From: Herpetosiphonaceae bacterium
GTDB taxonomy: Bacteria > Chloroflexota > Chloroflexia > Chloroflexales > Kallotenuaceae
Length of the DNA stretch: 34,955 nucleotides
Direction of reading: 5' to 3'
Assembly: GCA_013821605.1 (NCBI GenBank)
Contig: JACDGP010000052.1
Location: 1-34,955, forward strand
The stretch's first letter is position 1, and each line of letters opens with the position of its first letter. The notes beneath the pieces are model-generated. The model saw nothing but the letters and a program-made list of their open reading frames with translations, had not been told where the DNA came from and made no database searches. Position numbers and translations under genes: made by a program. Below, one piece after another: positions 2,334 through 16,708 of the stretch.

Positions 2334-4604
2334 CTAGCGCTGCAACACTTTGATATAGATGATCGCCTGGTGCTTGCTTTGCTTCCCCGCGAAAACCCAG
2401 AACCACAAACCCGGCGTGACCTTGGCCGTATCCCATTCGAGGCCATCGGTTTGACCGGTGGCTCCCACGTTAATGGTATCGGTGCCACCATGGACCGCTC
2501 CATCCGGCCCGGTCAGCCAGTATGCGATCTCCTCGTTCGGCTGGAAGCCGTTAATATTCATCTCGACTGGGGTACCCTGCTTGACGCAGTTAGCGGGCAG
2601 AACCCCACCACTGATCGGGGCCACGATGCCATTGCAATCGGCCGAAGCGCTCGGGGGAGGTGGTGGCGGAGGTGTTGTTCCAGGTGCCGGAGAGGGCACC
2701 CCCGGCGACGTCGATCCCTTCTCGAACTCATCGCCCAGGAGGCCAAGCAGCACACCCTGCGTCCCATGATCTTCGAAACGCGCTCGTTCAAACCACTGCG
2801 TCATGACGTGATCGCCAGACGAGTTGGTTTCCATCATCGGCTCGGAGAGCGGTAAGCCAAAGAGCTGCAGCGAACGCCCGTAGGCGTCTAATTTGGGGTC
2901 GTTCAGCCCATGACCCTGCCAATACTGGAGGAAGGTACCGCAGACAGCATGCTGCGTTTCGGCGAAGAACTGGCAGCCAGCCCCGCCGGGCTGCGCTTTG
3001 GGAAAGGTGAACCAGTCGCGACCCTGCTGCTTCAGCACTGTATCACCCAAGCGCCCCAGCAACACATTGTAGGGGGCCTGCTTTTCGGGGTGGTACTCGA
3101 AGCGGTTACGCTCAAGATACTGTACTTGGAAACTGCCATCCGCTGTGACCTCAGGATGCTGCTCAGTGATGGGGAAGCCAAAGACCGGCAAGCCGCCGTT
3201 GCCCTTCCAGTAATCCAGAAAGGTGCCCGCGAGGGTGTGATTTGTTTCGGGAAACGTGATCGCTTGGCCGGTAGCCGGTGGGGCGGGGGCCAGCGTGGCT
3301 TGCACAGCTTGAGCCGCTCGCCCGGCATTAATCCTTCCAAAGCCATAATAGTCATCGGGACCGGCGGTACCCAAGTCATCGGCCGTCTGCGAGATGATGC
3401 GCAGTACGTCCTTGTCGTTAAGCTGCGGATTGATCGATAAGAGCAATGCTGCCAGCCCGGAGACATAGGGTGACGCGAACGACGTGCCGCTATACTGGTT
3501 ATAGCCGTTCAGATTATCTTCCGACCCGCTGCTGACAATATCGACGCCCGGCGCGCTGATATCCAGGTACGGCCCGTAGTTGGAAAAGACTGCGCGCACA
3601 TCGTTGATATCAGTCGCGCCAACCGAGTAAACCTCGTCATAGGCAGCGGGATATTCGACCGGATTATCGGGATAGGCCTCGTTGCCCGATGCGGCGATTA
3701 CGACTACGCCTTTGCTGACCGCATATTGAATTGCGTCGTGATCAAACTGCGAGGGGTGGGGACCACCTAAACTCATGTTGATGACCCGCGCACCATGGTC
3801 GACGGCCCAGCGAATGCCCATAGCGGCTTCGACATTCGTGCCCTCGCCCTTGTTGTTCAATACCTTGACTGGCAAAATTCGGCAGCGCCAGCACATACCG
3901 GCGACACCGACGCCGTTATCACCGGCGGCGGCCATGATTCCGGCGGTGAACGTGCCATGCGATTCATCGTCATTGGTATTGGTGTTGTTGCTGACGAAGT
4001 TATAGCCCGGCAGCACTCTGCCCACCAAATCAGGATGGTGCGCATTCACGCCGGTGTCGAGGCTCGCAATCACGAGCGAGTCGGCACCCACCGAGACGTC
4101 CCAAGCCTGTGGTGCCTGAATCTTGGCGATGGGCCATTGTTGCGAGACCAGCGGATCGTTCGAGTTGCGTTGGATACTCCTGTCGGCCAGCAGATGCCAG
4201 CGATACACCGGTTCGGCGTAGGCTACAGCAGGATTCGCCGCGAATTGCGCGACCATGTCGGCAACGTGGGCATCAGTCCCCACATTGACCAGGTAGGTAT
4301 CATCACTCAGCGCTGCCGCCGGCAACGTCCCGGCTTGTCCAAGTAACGCCCCAAACGCTGGGTGGTCGTTATTGATGCCAAGTGCCTTCAGCGCTAACCC
4401 CGGCTGGACACGAACTACAAGTTCACCGGAGACAATCTCTGTATCCTTGATCGCAGCGCTTTGCGTTCGAGGCGGGCGCACGCGGTTAAAAGGAGCGGCT
4501 TCAGCATAAGCTGAACGCGGCCCCAATAGCGGTGCGGTGCAAAACAGCAGAAGCAGGACGACCCAGATCGGGCTACTTCGCCGCCAATGAAGGGATCGAT
4601 TCAT
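2334..4604 (-). CDS. Secreted subtilisin-like serine protease (S8) with tandem C-terminal domains
   Basis: A 756-aa exported endopeptidase. A basic start and hydrophobic core (residues 13-28) ending near AYAEA form a signal peptide. Residues about 50-135 resemble an I9-type propeptide. The S8 domain (about 150-435) has Asp183 in SLDTGV, His216 in ESHGTFTAG, oxyanion Asn308 in AASGNEA and Ser375 in GTSFASP, so it looks active. Two copies of an approximately 75-residue domain follow (about 452-526 and 546-626). Both carry GTFL-YW, LFG/VFGFP and QY/WFER-RFE, which is typical of Chloroflexi exoproteins. A proline-rich linker (about 631-652) leads to a final beta-rich domain. The start is fixed by GGAGG six nt upstream. 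It is monocistronic, with its own promoter. Confidence 0.93.
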   Translation of the reverse strand: MNRSLHWRRSSPIWVVLLLLFCTAPLLGPRSAYAEAAPFNRVRPPRTQSAAIKDTEIVSGELVVRVQPGLALKALGINNDHPAFGALLGQAGTLPAAALSDDTYLVNVGTDAHVADMVAQFAANPAVAYAEPVYRWHLLADRSIQRNSNDPLVSQQWPIAKIQAPQAWDVSVGADSLVIASLDTGVNAHHPDLVGRVLPGYNFVSNNTNTNDDESHGTFTAGIMAAAGDNGVGVAGMCWRCRILPVKVLNNKGEGTNVEAAMGIRWAVDHGARVINMSLGGPHPSQFDHDAIQYAVSKGVVVIAASGNEAYPDNPVEYPAAYDEVYSVGATDINDVRAVFSNYGPYLDISAPGVDIVSSGSEDNLNGYNQYSGTSFASPYVSGLAALLLSINPQLNDKDVLRIISQTADDLGTAGPDDYYGFGRINAGRAAQAVQATLAPAPPATGQAITFPETNHTLAGTFLDYWKGNGGLPVFGFPITEQHPEVTADGSFQVQYLERNRFEYHPEKQAPYNVLLGRLGDTVLKQQGRDWFTFPKAQPGGAGCQFFAETQHAVCGTFLQYWQGHGLNDPKLDAYGRSLQLFGLPLSEPMMETNSSGDHVMTQWFERARFEDHGTQGVLLGLLGDEFEKGSTSPGVPSPAPGTTPPPPPPPSASADCNGIVAPISGGVLPANCVKQGTPVEMNINGFQPNEEIAYWLTGPDGAVHGGTDTINVGATGQTDGLEWDTAKVTPGLWFWVFAGKQSKHQAIIYIKVLQR

Positions 4605-12810: not shown

Positions 12811-13289
12811 CGGCTGAGCAAGAGCTGGGCGCAGGCACGTTGCCCCGGACCCTCTGCTACCCAGACGGCCAAGCGCTGAACATCAACCATGTCCTGCGCC
12901 GGTAATTGTGTGGCGAGCTTATGGGCTAGATGCTCGGCTAACAGTTCGGCAGTCGTGTTATGGAGCGGTAGCAGGACGACATCGGCAGCAGGAAAGCAAT
13001 AATGCTGCTCGCCATAGCGCACGTTGATGCTATTGCCCACTGCAGTGATCACGAGCAGAGGATTTTCGGTTTGCAAGAGGACGCGGTGGTCAAGCAGTTG
13101 GCACTCGCGATGAATGAACTGCTTCAACTCAACGAAATCGCATACATAGCCATCGTCGGTAAGATCGCCTTCGAGCTCAACCCATACCTGATAGTTATGG
13201 CCATGTAAGCGCTCGCATTTACCCTTGATCGTAATGAAATGCGCAGCGGCGAACCCTAAATAGTCTTTGGTAACTTCAATACGAAACAT
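12807..13289 (-). CDS. queD: 6-carboxy-tetrahydropterin / 6-pyruvoyl-tetrahydropterin synthase family (QueD-like)
   Basis: A 160-aa enzyme of the T-fold pterin family. The zinc ligands are His17, His29 and His31, the last two in CERLHGHNY, which also supplies catalytic Cys25 of the CxxxHGH motif. LLDHR (residues 65-69) gives the catalytic Asp/His pair, and the C-terminal VAEGP gives the pterin-anchoring Glu146. It probably turns dihydroneopterin triphosphate into 6-carboxy-tetrahydropterin, a precursor of queuosine-type 7-deazaguanines, but the PTPS role cannot be excluded. No queC, queE or queF is nearby. Its first 14 bases overlap the end of the upstream zinc-ribbon gene, so it is the last gene of the long rpsB operon. 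Confidence 0.85.
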   Translation of the reverse strand: MFRIEVTKDYLGFAAAHFITIKGKCERLHGHNYQVWVELEGDLTDDGYVCDFVELKQFIHRECQLLDHRVLLQTENPLLVITAVGNSINVRYGEQHYCFPAADVVLLPLHNTTAELLAEHLAHKLATQLPAQDMVDVQRLAVWVAEGPGQRACAQLLLSR

Positions 13290-13620
13290 GATCTGTTAAT
13301 GCATCAGACACATACACGTTTTGCACACTGCGGCAGGTCGCGCAGGCGCGATAAGGAATCCCTGCACCCGCTTCGGTAAAGACATCGCGGCTGCCGCAGT
13401 AACGGCATACGCTCAGATTCTCGATCTCGTCAGCACCCCAAAGCTGTGGTGCAACGAACAGGCGTAGTCCGTGTAGGGTTTGCTGCAGTTGCAACAAGCG
13501 CACGCACACCGCCGCCGGAAATACTTCTTCAACCCGAGCATAGAGCTGGCGGCCATGACATAGTACATCATCACCGACCAGCACGTCTTTCATACGTGGA
13601 TGCTGCTGGATTTTCATCAT
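13276..13620 (-). CDS. Small protein with C-terminal zinc ribbon, unrecognised
   Basis: A 114-aa protein. Residues 72-96 hold CRYC and CATC, a classic CxxC-x17-CxxC zinc ribbon. The N-terminal half (about 10-58) is a compact alpha/beta region with no motif I know. Two adjacent ATG codons (13620 and 13617) are possible starts, 3-6 nt after the upstream stop. It overlaps the queD-like gene by 14 nt. The position suggests a conserved operon accessory in this lineage, but no function can be stated. Confidence 0.65.
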   Translation of the reverse strand: MMKIQQHPRMKDVLVGDDVLCHGRQLYARVEEVFPAAVCVRLLQLQQTLHGLRLFVAPQLWGADEIENLSVCRYCGSRDVFTEAGAGIPYRACATCRSVQNVYVSDALTDHVSY

Positions 13621-13623
13621 TGG

Positions 13624-13947
13624 CTACTCATCATCAACATCAACGTCAGGTTCATCTTCAAGCTCATCATCGATGTCACTATCCTCGCGATACATTGCCG
13701 TTTCAAGCTGCTGCACCATATGCTCAACCTCCGTGCGTGCGATCTGGAAGTGAGGATCGTCTCCAAACATCAGATCATCCAGGGTCTGCGCCAGGATAGA
13801 ACGGTAGCCTGCTTCATAGCTCACCTTGCCTTCAGCTTCGGCATAGAACTGATCGAACGCCCAACGGGCGAGGCTGACCACCGATTGTTGGCCGACCAAA
13901 AAAGCCCGTAATTGGTCCAGCATTGCCACCCGATCAAGCACATTCAC
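13624..13947 (-). CDS. Small acidic-tailed protein, unrecognised
   Basis: About 107 aa from a GTG that overlaps the upstream TGA (GTGA). ATG 13923 (99 aa) is an alternative. The body is helical, with SVVSLARWAFDQFYAEAE and the conserved-looking LDDLMFGDDPHF, which suggests an immunity-like or four-helix fold. The C-terminus is an extremely acidic tail of Asp/Glu/Val (last about 20 residues). No family recognised. It sits between the Cas4-like pair and the zinc-ribbon gene in one operon. Confidence 0.6.
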   Translation of the reverse strand: MNVLDRVAMLDQLRAFLVGQQSVVSLARWAFDQFYAEAEGKVSYEAGYRSILAQTLDDLMFGDDPHFQIARTEVEHMVQQLETAMYREDSDIDDELEDEPDVDVDDE

Positions 13948-14444
13948 ACTAGTGAATCCGTGCAACTAGAAGCAAAGCCGCATCCGCGACAGCGCGCAGC
14001 GTTTCCATGCGAACGCGCCACATCAGGTGCCTGACGATCATGTTTAATTGCCTGGAGCAGAATGATGAGTTCTTGGCGCACGGCACGCGTGTAGGGTAGT
14101 TTAAAGGTTTGTGTCGCGTAGCGCAAGAGGCCGTACTTCGGCGACCGGCCGGTTGTGGCTTCCACTAGCAAGCAATACGCGGCAAGTTGCATCAAATCGG
14201 ATTGGTATGGTGCGGGCGCTTGGCGCTCCGGTTTGACCTCAACCGGAATCAAGCTGCCACGTACCTGCAGCAGATAATCGGGTTTGCCTACCAGATCATA
14301 CTGACGTGCAATCAACGGCCGGTCGTTACGTTGCCAGTCGGTATCCTGATACACGACCCGCTGCCAGGGCAAACCGCTACGACGTCGCGACCATAAGGCT
14401 AGGAGCAGGCTGAGCAGGGCCAGAACCAGCAAAAGCCAGCCCAT
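13944..14444 (-). CDS. Cas4-like PD-(D/E)XK nuclease, catalytic half, membrane-anchored
   Basis: A 166-aa protein carrying the core of a Cas4/RecB-type nuclease. One transmembrane helix (residues 2-18) opens the protein. GKPDYLL (Asp56) and IPVEVKPER (Glu69, Lys71) are the metal-binding and catalytic PD-(D/E)XK residues. QLAAYCLLVE (86-95) is motif III (QxxxY). The C-terminus has Cys152, Cys155 and Cys161 (CRGC...SSC), three of the four ligands of a Cas4 4Fe-4S cluster. The fourth cysteine and the N-terminal motif are in the preceding gene, and TAATG couples the two. The open frame extends 60 codons further upstream, but the coupled ATG and helix support 14444. No CRISPR array or other cas gene is present, so a repair role is more likely than spacer acquisition. 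Confidence 0.8.
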   Translation of the reverse strand: MGWLLLVLALLSLLLALWSRRRSGLPWQRVVYQDTDWQRNDRPLIARQYDLVGKPDYLLQVRGSLIPVEVKPERQAPAPYQSDLMQLAAYCLLVEATTGRSPKYGLLRYATQTFKLPYTRAVRQELIILLQAIKHDRQAPDVARSHGNAARCRGCGFASSCTDSLV

Positions 14445-14665
14445 TAGTGCAGCAGCAGTGTCAAGAGCCCGGCGACCAGCAACAGCAAGCCAAGCCCTAG
14501 CAGGAGCCGTGAGCGCCATACCACGGCATGATGGCGCGCATGTGCTCTGGTGCCACGCGCTCGTCGGGACCGTCCGGCCGGGATCTCGCCGACGACCTCG
14601 CGTAGCCACCAAGCGCGATGGCAATATACATACTCGCCAATTTCACTGGCCTTGATCAGCGGCAT
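14444..14665 (-). CDS. Cas4-like nuclease, N-terminal half, membrane-anchored
   Basis: A 73-aa protein. The start MPLIKASEIGEYVYCHRAWW is the standard N-terminus of Cas4-type nucleases, with Cys15 expected to complete the iron-sulfur cluster, and RGTRAHARHH (residues 37-46) matches the motif-I histidine region. A single transmembrane helix (about 53-72) ends the protein at the point where a normal Cas4 would continue into its catalytic core. That core is the next gene, which begins with its own helix. The start at 14665 follows the rseP stop by one base, with GGGGG 6 nt upstream. The pair may work as a heterodimer held by a two-helix hairpin, or may be a broken fusion. Confidence 0.7.
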   Translation of the reverse strand: MPLIKASEIGEYVYCHRAWWLREVVGEIPAGRSRRARGTRAHARHHAVVWRSRLLLGLGLLLLVAGLLTLLLH

Positions 14666-14666
14666 A

Positions 14667-15776
14667 CTAGCCCCCGAAGGCATCATGGCCACGTAGCCAG
14701 TTGCTGACATCGGTGAAGGTGATCAGGAGCATTAAGCCCAGCAACAACATCATACCGGCGGCATGCACCATGGCTTCGCGCTGCGGTGGCACTTTCTTGC
14801 CGCGAATCCATTCGATCAAGGCAAACACAATCCGGCTCCCATCCAAGGCCGGGATCGGCAACAGATTGATCAAGGCAAGGTTAACGCTCAACACCGCCGT
14901 CCAGCGCAACAAACCGCGCAGGCCGCCGGTGCGAGCGACTTCGCCGGTAAGCCGTGCGATACCGACGGGTCCGGCAACACCGCCCTCCGGTTTCGCGCTT
15001 AAGCCAAAGAGCGAACCAACCAGGATCCCGAGGCCAGTCAACATACTGCCAAAGAGCCGGAAGGTTTCGGTCACACCGAACCATAACGCACTTAGGGGAT
15101 TGCGGATTTGGTCAATATTGCGCGTCCCGGTCACATCCTCGGTCAGCATCTTAATCCCAATGCCGACCGCACCATCCCGCACCGCCGCTTCCGAGGGCAA
15201 TCGTGGTGTCAGATTGACTTCTTGTTCGCGGTTGTCCCGGATAATCGTAAAGGTCGTTTTTTGACCTTGATGGGCCTTGATCGCCGCGAGCAGCGTACGT
15301 TGCGAATCGACCGGCTGGTGTGCAACTTCTTTTAATTTATCACCCTTTTGCAACGCACCGTCGGCCGGAGAGCCTGGGTTGACTGAAGCAACCGAGACGG
15401 TACCAACATTTTCCGGGGTGCCAAAGGGTGCTAGGAGTGCCAAAATGAAAATGGCCGCCAAAATATTCATAATGGCACCGGCAGCCATAATCGGGATACG
15501 GCGAGGCGGTGAAGCAGCCGCTAAACTATGGGGGTCGTCGAAATTTGATTCTTCGCCCGCGAACCGAACAAACCCACCGAGTGGCAACCAGTTGAGCGTA
15601 ACAGGAACACCGCGATAGTGGAACAGAGTTAGCATACGCGGCGGATAGCCAAAACCGAACTCTTCGATCGTGACACCCATTCGTAAACCAACCAGGAAAT
15701 GCCCGAGTTCATGGACGAAGACCAGCAAGCCGAGGGCCGGAATAACTGATAGATACCAGAGCCAACCAAACGACAT
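14667..15776 (-). CDS. rseP: Site-2 membrane metalloprotease RseP
   Basis: A 369-aa intramembrane zinc protease, M50 family, acting on membrane-anchored anti-sigma factors and signal-peptide remnants. The first helix carries HELGH (His22, Glu23, His26). A PDZ domain lies at about 125-190 with the ligand loop PGSPADGALQKGD. The third zinc ligand Asp312 is in NLLPIPALDG. I start at MSFGWLW because a GAGGAG site precedes it and the extra 30 upstream codons are not conserved-looking. It lies in the operon after cdsA. No dxr gene sits between cdsA and rseP, unlike many bacteria. Confidence 0.92.
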   Translation of the reverse strand: MSFGWLWYLSVIPALGLLVFVHELGHFLVGLRMGVTIEEFGFGYPPRMLTLFHYRGVPVTLNWLPLGGFVRFAGEESNFDDPHSLAAASPPRRIPIMAAGAIMNILAAIFILALLAPFGTPENVGTVSVASVNPGSPADGALQKGDKLKEVAHQPVDSQRTLLAAIKAHQGQKTTFTIIRDNREQEVNLTPRLPSEAAVRDGAVGIGIKMLTEDVTGTRNIDQIRNPLSALWFGVTETFRLFGSMLTGLGILVGSLFGLSAKPEGGVAGPVGIARLTGEVARTGGLRGLLRWTAVLSVNLALINLLPIPALDGSRIVFALIEWIRGKKVPPQREAMVHAAGMMLLLGLMLLITFTDVSNWLRGHDAFGG

Positions 15777-15850
15777 AGAGGTCTCCTCGTGCCATGTGCA
15801 TGCCACCTGTAGGATCAGGTAGACAGCATAGGAAGTGTACCGGAATGGAT

Positions 15851-16708
15851 CTAGTGCGTCAACCAAACGACTAGATAGTAGAGGACCGGGACCGTAAACA
15901 GCAGGCTGTCAACACGGTCAAGCAGCCCACCATGACCAGGAATCAACTTACCTGAGTCCTTAACCCCGACCTGCCGTTTGATCAGTGACTCCACTAGGTC
16001 GCCGGCCTGCCCTGCCAGACTGCCGAGCACACCGAGCATGCCGGCTATGGGCAGGCTGATCGGCAAATGTAATAGCTCTACCGCTAACATACTACCGAGC
16101 ATGCCAAAGACCAAGCCACCAACTGCGCCTTCCCAGCTTTTATTCGGACTAATAACGGGGGCCATGCGGCGACGACCCAAGCGGCGCCCGACGAAATAGG
16201 CCCCGGTATCACTGGCAAACGTGATCGCCAGTGCCACTGCGATCCAGGCGGCACCTTGCGGTAAGCTGCGGAGCAAAATAAAGTGGACCAGCAACCACGG
16301 CACGTACAAGCTGCCAGCGAAGGTAGATAACCAGTTAGGCAGTGCTCCCGTCAGATCAGGAGCGGCAAGCTCGACAATTAGTGTGAGGATGATCGCCAAC
16401 GTTACAACGGGAGCAAGCAAGTCCGGCCCACCATAGCTTCGAACAACCGCGACCACCACCAGGGCGACTGCGACAAGGTAACCAACCGGATGGGGCCGGT
16501 AGCCGCCGGATTTAAAGAGCCCATAGAGTTCATAGAGCGAAAGAAGCACGACGAGCAGCACGGTTCCAACAATCCACCAGTTACCAAGCCACAACACAGC
16601 CGCCAGCACCGGTAGTAGCACCACCGAACTGAGGATGCGTTGGGTGAGGTTACTTAATGTTCGGCGAGGCTTCGGGGAGGGCTCCGAAGCGGCGTTCGCG
16701 GTGTCCAT
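15851..16708 (-). CDS. cdsA: Phosphatidate cytidylyltransferase
   Basis: Makes CDP-diacylglycerol from CTP and phosphatidic acid for phospholipid synthesis. A 285-aa protein with about eight membrane helices. The C-terminal family signature SLIKRQVGVKDSGKLIPGHG plus GLLDRVDS is intact, and FASDTGAYFVGR and SPNKSWEG are the other conserved loops. The ATG at 16708 (or GTG 16726) lies inside the end of uppS in another frame, a 59-nt overlap, so the two genes are tightly linked. Confidence 0.92.
   Translation of the reverse strand: MDTANAASEPSPKPRRTLSNLTQRILSSVVLLPVLAAVLWLGNWWIVGTVLLVVLLSLYELYGLFKSGGYRPHPVGYLVAVALVVVAVVRSYGGPDLLAPVVTLAIILTLIVELAAPDLTGALPNWLSTFAGSLYVPWLLVHFILLRSLPQGAAWIAVALAITFASDTGAYFVGRRLGRRRMAPVISPNKSWEGAVGGLVFGMLGSMLAVELLHLPISLPIAGMLGVLGSLAGQAGDLVESLIKRQVGVKDSGKLIPGHGGLLDRVDSLLFTVPVLYYLVVWLTH

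Follow-up and report, generated by a model that had tools for sequence, protein, structure and literature searches.

A two-gene locus beside rseP

The DNA analysed here (the window, a stretch of 34,955 nucleotides from a Herpetosiphonaceae bacterium) carries two short genes that jointly resemble one Cas4 nuclease (Table 1). The first, ORF1, contains the Cas4 N-terminal motif with the first cluster cysteine, KASEIGEYVYC(15)HRAWWL, followed by GTRAH(42) and a C-terminal hydrophobic helix with a mean Kyte-Doolittle value of 2.82 in a 19-residue window. The second, ORF2, begins with a helix (mean value 2.31) and then presents, in this order, GKPD(56)Y, E69-V-K71, Q86..Y90 and C152/C155/C161, which correspond to the PD-(D/E)XK core and three C-terminal cysteines. 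The junction sits between the two helices. The first-pass annotation had described the N-terminal motif with its cysteine, the two helices, the PD-(D/E)XK core, the three C-terminal cysteines and the TAATG junction, and read the locus as a Cas4-like nuclease split into two membrane-anchored, translationally coupled halves; all of these elements were recovered in our analysis.

ORF1 starts 1 nucleotide past the stop codon of rseP, in an operon of the uppS-cdsA-rseP type, and neither cas1 nor cas2 lies beside the pair. The earlier description of a core operon with rseP and no CRISPR is correct for the adjoining rseP, while the absence of CRISPR holds at the locus alone: several cas1 matches lie on other contigs (G000:C63:52082-52927, G000:C69:9-629 and G000:C194:27593-28252), so the source genome is not CRISPR-free. 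Downstream of ORF2 are two small minus-strand ORFs (window 13624-13965 and 13276-13620), one acidic and one with a CxxC...CxxC pattern, neither matching a Pfam family above cut-off; a QueD-like PTPS gene comes next.

Table 1 Positions of the features discussed (window coordinates unless a locus is named).
Feature	Position	Strand	Basis or remark
ORF1, 73-aa Cas4 N-terminal half	14444..14665	minus	motifs, TM helix, Cas4 profile match
ORF1 Cys15	14621-14623	minus	
ORF1 motif-I His42	14540-14542	minus	
ORF1 C-terminal TM helix, residues 54-72	14450-14506	minus	
ORF2, 166-aa Cas4 catalytic half	13944..14444	minus	motifs, TM helix, profile matches
ORF2 N-terminal TM helix, residues 1-19	14388-14444	minus	
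ORF2 Asp56	14277-14279	minus	
ORF2 Glu69	14238-14240	minus	
ORF2 Lys71	14232-14234	minus	
ORF2 Gln86/Tyr90		minus	
ORF2 Cys152/155/161	13962-13991	minus	
TAATG junction	14442..14446	minus	ORF1 stop + ORF2 start, 1-nt overlap
rseP (Peptidase_M50 + PDZ)	14667..15866	minus	upstream neighbour, genomic context only
Insert gene between halves, locus L121	3278-3910		HEAT-like
Insert genes between halves, locus L114	2625-3922		HEAT-like, two in tandem

The two genes divide one Cas4 profile between them

The NCBIfam cas4 profile TIGR00372 (180 positions) is matched consecutively and without overlap, residues 5-50 of ORF1 covering profile positions 2-47 and residues 43-162 of ORF2 covering positions 60-179; the PADLOC Cas4 model is divided in the same way. 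ORF2 exceeds the cut-offs of PF01930 (Cas_Cas4, 28.3 bits against 22.7) and of PF12705 (PDDEXK_1), and falls below that of TIGR00372 (52.5 against 65), which Anaerolineae ORF2s exceed at 78.0 and 75.1. ORF1 matches no Pfam family but aligns with the N-terminal end of the Cas4 profiles. When the source genome was searched in six frames with PF01930, nothing was returned at E <= 0.001, although the ORF2 protein passes the Pfam cut-off.

By profile cut-off, cysteine pattern, active-site residues and predicted fold, the pair has the sequence and fold features of the Cas4 family. It is neither a single polypeptide nor located beside cas1/cas2, and so lacks the single-chain and cas-locus features of CRISPR-associated Cas4.

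The halves are separate genes across Chloroflexota

An ordinary single-chain Cas4 gene split by a local frameshift, a sequencing error or decay would also produce two ORFs that abut at a 1-nucleotide overlap and jointly resemble one Cas4, and in that case relatives should carry a single fused ORF. We surveyed 400 Chloroflexota genomes with a completeness of at least 85%. ORF2-family genes occur in 125 of them (134 when distant Cas4-like matches are included) and ORF1 in 104, always with ORF2; ORF1 without ORF2 was found in none of the 400. In the 104 genomes with both halves, these are adjacent in 82, separated by 0.4-1.3 kb in 10 and unlinked in 12. ORF2 orthologs were also found in a search of 41 related genomes, and named loci from Chloroflexales to Anaerolineae, Caldilineae and Thermoflexus are split too, although in a minority no ORF1 was found at the locus, in many cases close to the end of a contig. 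The 21 genomes scored as carrying ORF2 only belong mainly to the large-genome lineage f28, and in most of them a longer and more divergent ORF1 lies immediately upstream or is fused; one of them, G340, is interrupted by its contig end. Two order-level genomes of 98-100% completeness (G007 and G011) have neither half by both profiles, a joint loss; the Chloroflexales genomes G033 and G039 likewise are without the system.

The distances between unlinked halves can be large. They lie about 0.89 Mb apart on opposite strands of one 2.96 Mb contig in G085, 2.8 Mb apart in the coordinates of a single 3.3 Mb contig in G331, and on opposite strands of one contig in G435. G420 is also among these genomes, and in family f33 the halves are unlinked in all eight genomes in which both were detected. 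Other genes may also intervene: in the Anaerolineae locus L110 an L,D-transpeptidase (YkuD) gene (3180-3920) separates the halves, a layout repeated in L103, L108 and L115, and in L114, L121 and L129, also from Anaerolineae, one or two HEAT-like genes do so. In the examined loci ORF1 is an ORF of its own upstream of ORF2, and the junctions range from TGATG, TAATG or ATGA overlaps through direct abutment to gaps of up to about 70 bases. Adjacent halves show all three frame relations, which vary even among close relatives.

Because gapped, unlinked and all-frame arrangements occur, the halves are made as separate chains. Splitting is found in nearly every relative, and some halves lie far apart, so the relatives are not all fused. 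These layouts refute a split caused by a local frameshift, by sequencing error or by decay of the gene, since all order-level relatives examined are split in three frame relations and the halves are elsewhere parted by other genes or unlinked; purifying selection on both halves (below) speaks against it as well, and we regard its chance as negligible. Almost as improbable is that this genome still produces a single polypeptide, through programmed frameshifting or read-through of the stop, so that the genes only look split. Adjacency in most genomes and in-frame fusions in three would fit such a mechanism, but ORF2 has its own start codon, the frame relation differs among close relatives, gaps and insert genes occur, and the unlinked halves of G085 and G435 lie on opposite strands. 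As for the close coupling proposed earlier, the TAATG overlap is present in the window, but coupling is not essential to the system, the halves being unlinked in other genomes.

The chromosomal contexts vary by lineage (rseP, hisS, NAD kinase, dnaX, UbiA, recA), and no conserved functional neighbour was found. Of two genomes with unlinked halves (loci L165 of G435 and L160 of G085), one has ORF1 close to recA and the other has ORF2 close to dnaX, which is possibly a weak hint at DNA repair.

Conserved residues, membrane helices and selection

The cysteine motif is present in 96/96 full-length ORF1 sequences (two further ORF1s are cut short), GxxxH or its Tyr variant in 96/98 ORF1s and CxxCx5C in 97/97 ORF2s, while the Asp, ExK and QxxxY motifs are retained in nearly all ORF2s. 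The active-site residues are divided, with His on ORF1 and Asp, Glu-x-Lys and Gln-x-x-x-Tyr on ORF2. On sequence comparison, the one N-terminal and three C-terminal cysteines, a 4Fe-4S ligand pattern, are in register with those of Cas4 proteins in the PDB.

Hydrophobic stretches of transmembrane grade were found in 97/98 ORF1s and 89/97 ORF2s. The mean charge before and after the helix is +2.8/+0.3 for ORF1 and 0/+2.5 for ORF2, from which, by the positive-inside rule, we infer that both globular parts face the cytoplasm. Values of dN/dS in six close pairs (0.07-0.16 for ORF1, 0.06-0.12 for ORF2) indicate that both halves are under purifying selection.

Members from one Chloroflexota lineage (L172, L197, L201, L204, L206, L207 and L208) carry S, T or A in place of the catalytic Asp of GKPDY (KP[STA]Y) while keeping the cysteines; they may be pseudo-nuclease forms, in which cutting has perhaps been lost. 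This loss, together with the housekeeping genes found as neighbours, could mean that the pair is genuinely bipartite but does another job, as a structural or redox-sensing pseudo-nuclease or as an RNA-processing enzyme like the membrane-bound RNase Y. We consider this improbable, though less so than the frameshift and read-through explanations: H, D, ExK and QxxxY hardly vary across most of the family, the window included, and the relatives Cas4, Exo5 and AdnAB are DNases.

Rare natural fusions

The first-pass annotation had suggested a search for fused versions with an inner helical hairpin, and such versions do exist, though we found them only at L197, L204 and L206. These three genomes, of lineage f28, encode a fused ORF of 330-379 aa with two hydrophobic peaks about 10-15 residues apart, that is, a transmembrane hairpin between the Cas4 parts. 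In the same genus as L204, the genes of L201 line up one after the other with the single L204 ORF, at 76% and 82% identity, which independently supports the view that the two halves form one enzyme. The fused copies are among those without the Asp of GKPDY, and they may perhaps be inactive. Two other candidate fusions, L088 and L091, were rejected: the match ran across a TAG directly before an ATG, and both loci are split.

The joined halves are predicted to adopt one Cas4 fold

In some Roseiflexus-type loci only an in-frame TGA parts the halves, and a single-chain surrogate was obtained by reading this codon as Gly. AlphaFold2 modelled it with a pLDDT of 94.5 and a pTM of 0.89 from a 65-row alignment (A7) that has eight misplaced residues per ORF2 row. 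The best Foldseek match of the model was the type I-C Cas4 8d3l (E 2.3e-6), and the best VIA-align match was the Cas4 of 7mi4 (Z 19.1, 2.8 A over 180 residues), spanning model residues 3-255 and hence both halves. The joined halves are thus predicted to form one Cas4 fold, in a model of a single chain with a residue at the stop codon, which is not proof that the free chains dock.

In profile comparisons, the match to the solved Cas4 8d3l improved from 7.7e-7 with ORF2 alone to 9.5e-11 with a joint ORF1+ORF2 profile, which places the N-terminal Cys and the GxxxH His of ORF1 in register with solved Cas4s. Alignment to iron-sulfur Cas4 structures suggests that the four cysteines would converge.

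Two-gene pairs on plasmids

A tblastn search of ORF2 against plasmids detected the two-gene pair outside Chloroflexota, on plasmids of Bacillus, Gammaproteobacteria and Planctomycetota. The Bacillus subtilis plasmid NZ_OX419568.1 (L180 956-1920) encodes a complete pair, in which ORF1 (81 aa) and the ORF2 that follows it (162 aa) each have a TM helix; ORF1 is annotated there as a hypothetical protein, and a helicase gene lies upstream. The plasmids of Marinobacter, Microbulbifer, Vibrio and Aeromonas retain the TM helix in ORF2, and their ORF1 either carries a CFI-box-CTERM domain or lacks a strong helix. In six gammaproteobacterial plasmid loci (L181, L183, L184, L186, L189 and L192) the Cas4 N-terminal half is fused to CFI-box-CTERM (NF041770) and has no TM helix, with the helix-bearing ORF2 adjoining; a fused MFS/spermidine synthase gene lies upstream of this type of pair in four plasmids. 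Thioalkalivibrio has a DUF4326 gene between the halves, then two DNA methylase genes, and in Paludisphaera a 91-aa and 169-aa pair is followed by a DNA methyltransferase gene. The gammaproteobacterial pairs are mostly on conjugative or mobilizable plasmids; no relative was detected in the viral contigs and phage records searched.

A tree built from 31 split and 8 single-chain sequences places the split forms on one side of a branch with support of 98/91. With few outgroups and some long branches, this is compatible with a single origin of the split forms.

A proposed two-subunit, membrane-tethered nuclease

Taken together, the Chloroflexota-wide split, the unlinked halves and the joint fold model support the earlier proposal of a two-chain membrane Cas4-like nuclease over a local frameshift. 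The two genes are inherited together, both are constrained, and between them they encode all conserved Cas4 residues. We propose, with a probability of roughly 0.85, that the pair is an obligate two-subunit, membrane-tethered Cas4-family [4Fe-4S] PD-(D/E)XK nuclease, with both chains contributing to the active site and to the cluster ligands; the heterodimer, the shared cluster and the nuclease activity are putative. The break in the Cas4 chain would follow the motif-I histidine, giving two subunits that are translated separately. ORF1, oriented N-in/C-out, would supply a cytoplasmic helix bearing the first of the cluster cysteines together with the catalytic His, and ORF2, oriented N-out/C-in, would bear Asp, Glu-x-Lys, Gln-x-x-x-Tyr and the remaining three cysteines. 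The two TM helices, packed side by side as in the rare fusions, would join the cytoplasmic parts, so that cluster and active site would form in the heterodimer only.

The role can be suggested only tentatively: at somewhat less than even odds, the pair processes or degrades DNA on the cytoplasmic side of the membrane, where it would block or process DNA that enters the cell, or acts in membrane-proximal DNA repair. In Synechococcus elongatus, a Cas4-like nuclease reduces the transfer or maintenance of an RSF1010 plasmid, and loss of its gene helps (PMC10653904); because of this effect and of the pairs on conjugative or mobilizable plasmids, we favour the idea that the pair acts on DNA at the membrane. 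Vertical inheritance among housekeeping genes in Chloroflexota would fit a role in DNA repair as well. A broader view is a little more speculative still, namely that the pairs constitute a widespread class in four bacterial phyla, with cluster and active site each shared by two membrane-anchored chains, which is switched by cluster or membrane assembly and polices DNA at the membrane.

A nuclease with its cluster and active site spread across two membrane proteins would have an unusual built-in control on a dangerous activity. Automatic annotation can call ORF2 a Cas4 or PD-(D/E)XK nuclease and leave ORF1 hypothetical or uncalled, so that half an enzyme is studied and counted; if our reading is true, a Chloroflexota "solo-Cas4" expressed from ORF2 alone would be an inactive protein. 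The unlinked, adjacent and fused natural forms offer a ready test set.

Comparison with known systems

Monophyletic solo-Cas4 genes have been described in many Chloroflexi, those of Chloroflexi and Thermoanaerobacterales being vertically inherited (Hudaiberdiev et al. 2017, PMC5704561). The pair agrees with them in phylum, in having no CRISPR link and in vertical inheritance, and ORF2 is very probably what was counted there as solo-Cas4. The text of that study makes no mention of transmembrane or split forms, and by our data the chromosomal solo-Cas4 gene of Chloroflexi is half of an enzyme. Our search of the open-licence literature turned up no description of a Cas4 that is split or anchored in the membrane; the two-gene, membrane-anchored design is a real and previously overlooked form of Cas4-family enzyme, not a broken gene.

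As judged from the model and alignments, CRISPR Cas4 (8d3l, type I-C; 7mi4, the Cas4 domain of a Cas4/Cas1 fusion) shares with the pair the fold, the motif order, H-D-ExK-QxxxY and the 1+3 cysteines. It is, however, one soluble chain encoded beside cas1/cas2, whereas the pair consists of two chains with a TM helix each, outside a cas locus. The Argonaute-associated Cas4 ACE1 (9iac, 9iab) is a stand-alone family member that matches the surrogate model with a Z of 11; it is a single chain with, by its PDB title, an Argonaute partner, in contrast to the two chains here. Exo5 (7lwa) and the nuclease domains of AdnA, AddB and Dna2, several of which contain an Fe-S cluster, have the RecB-like nuclease fold and match the surrogate model with Z of 9-14. 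Unlike the pair, they are single-chain or helicase-fused and have no membrane anchor.
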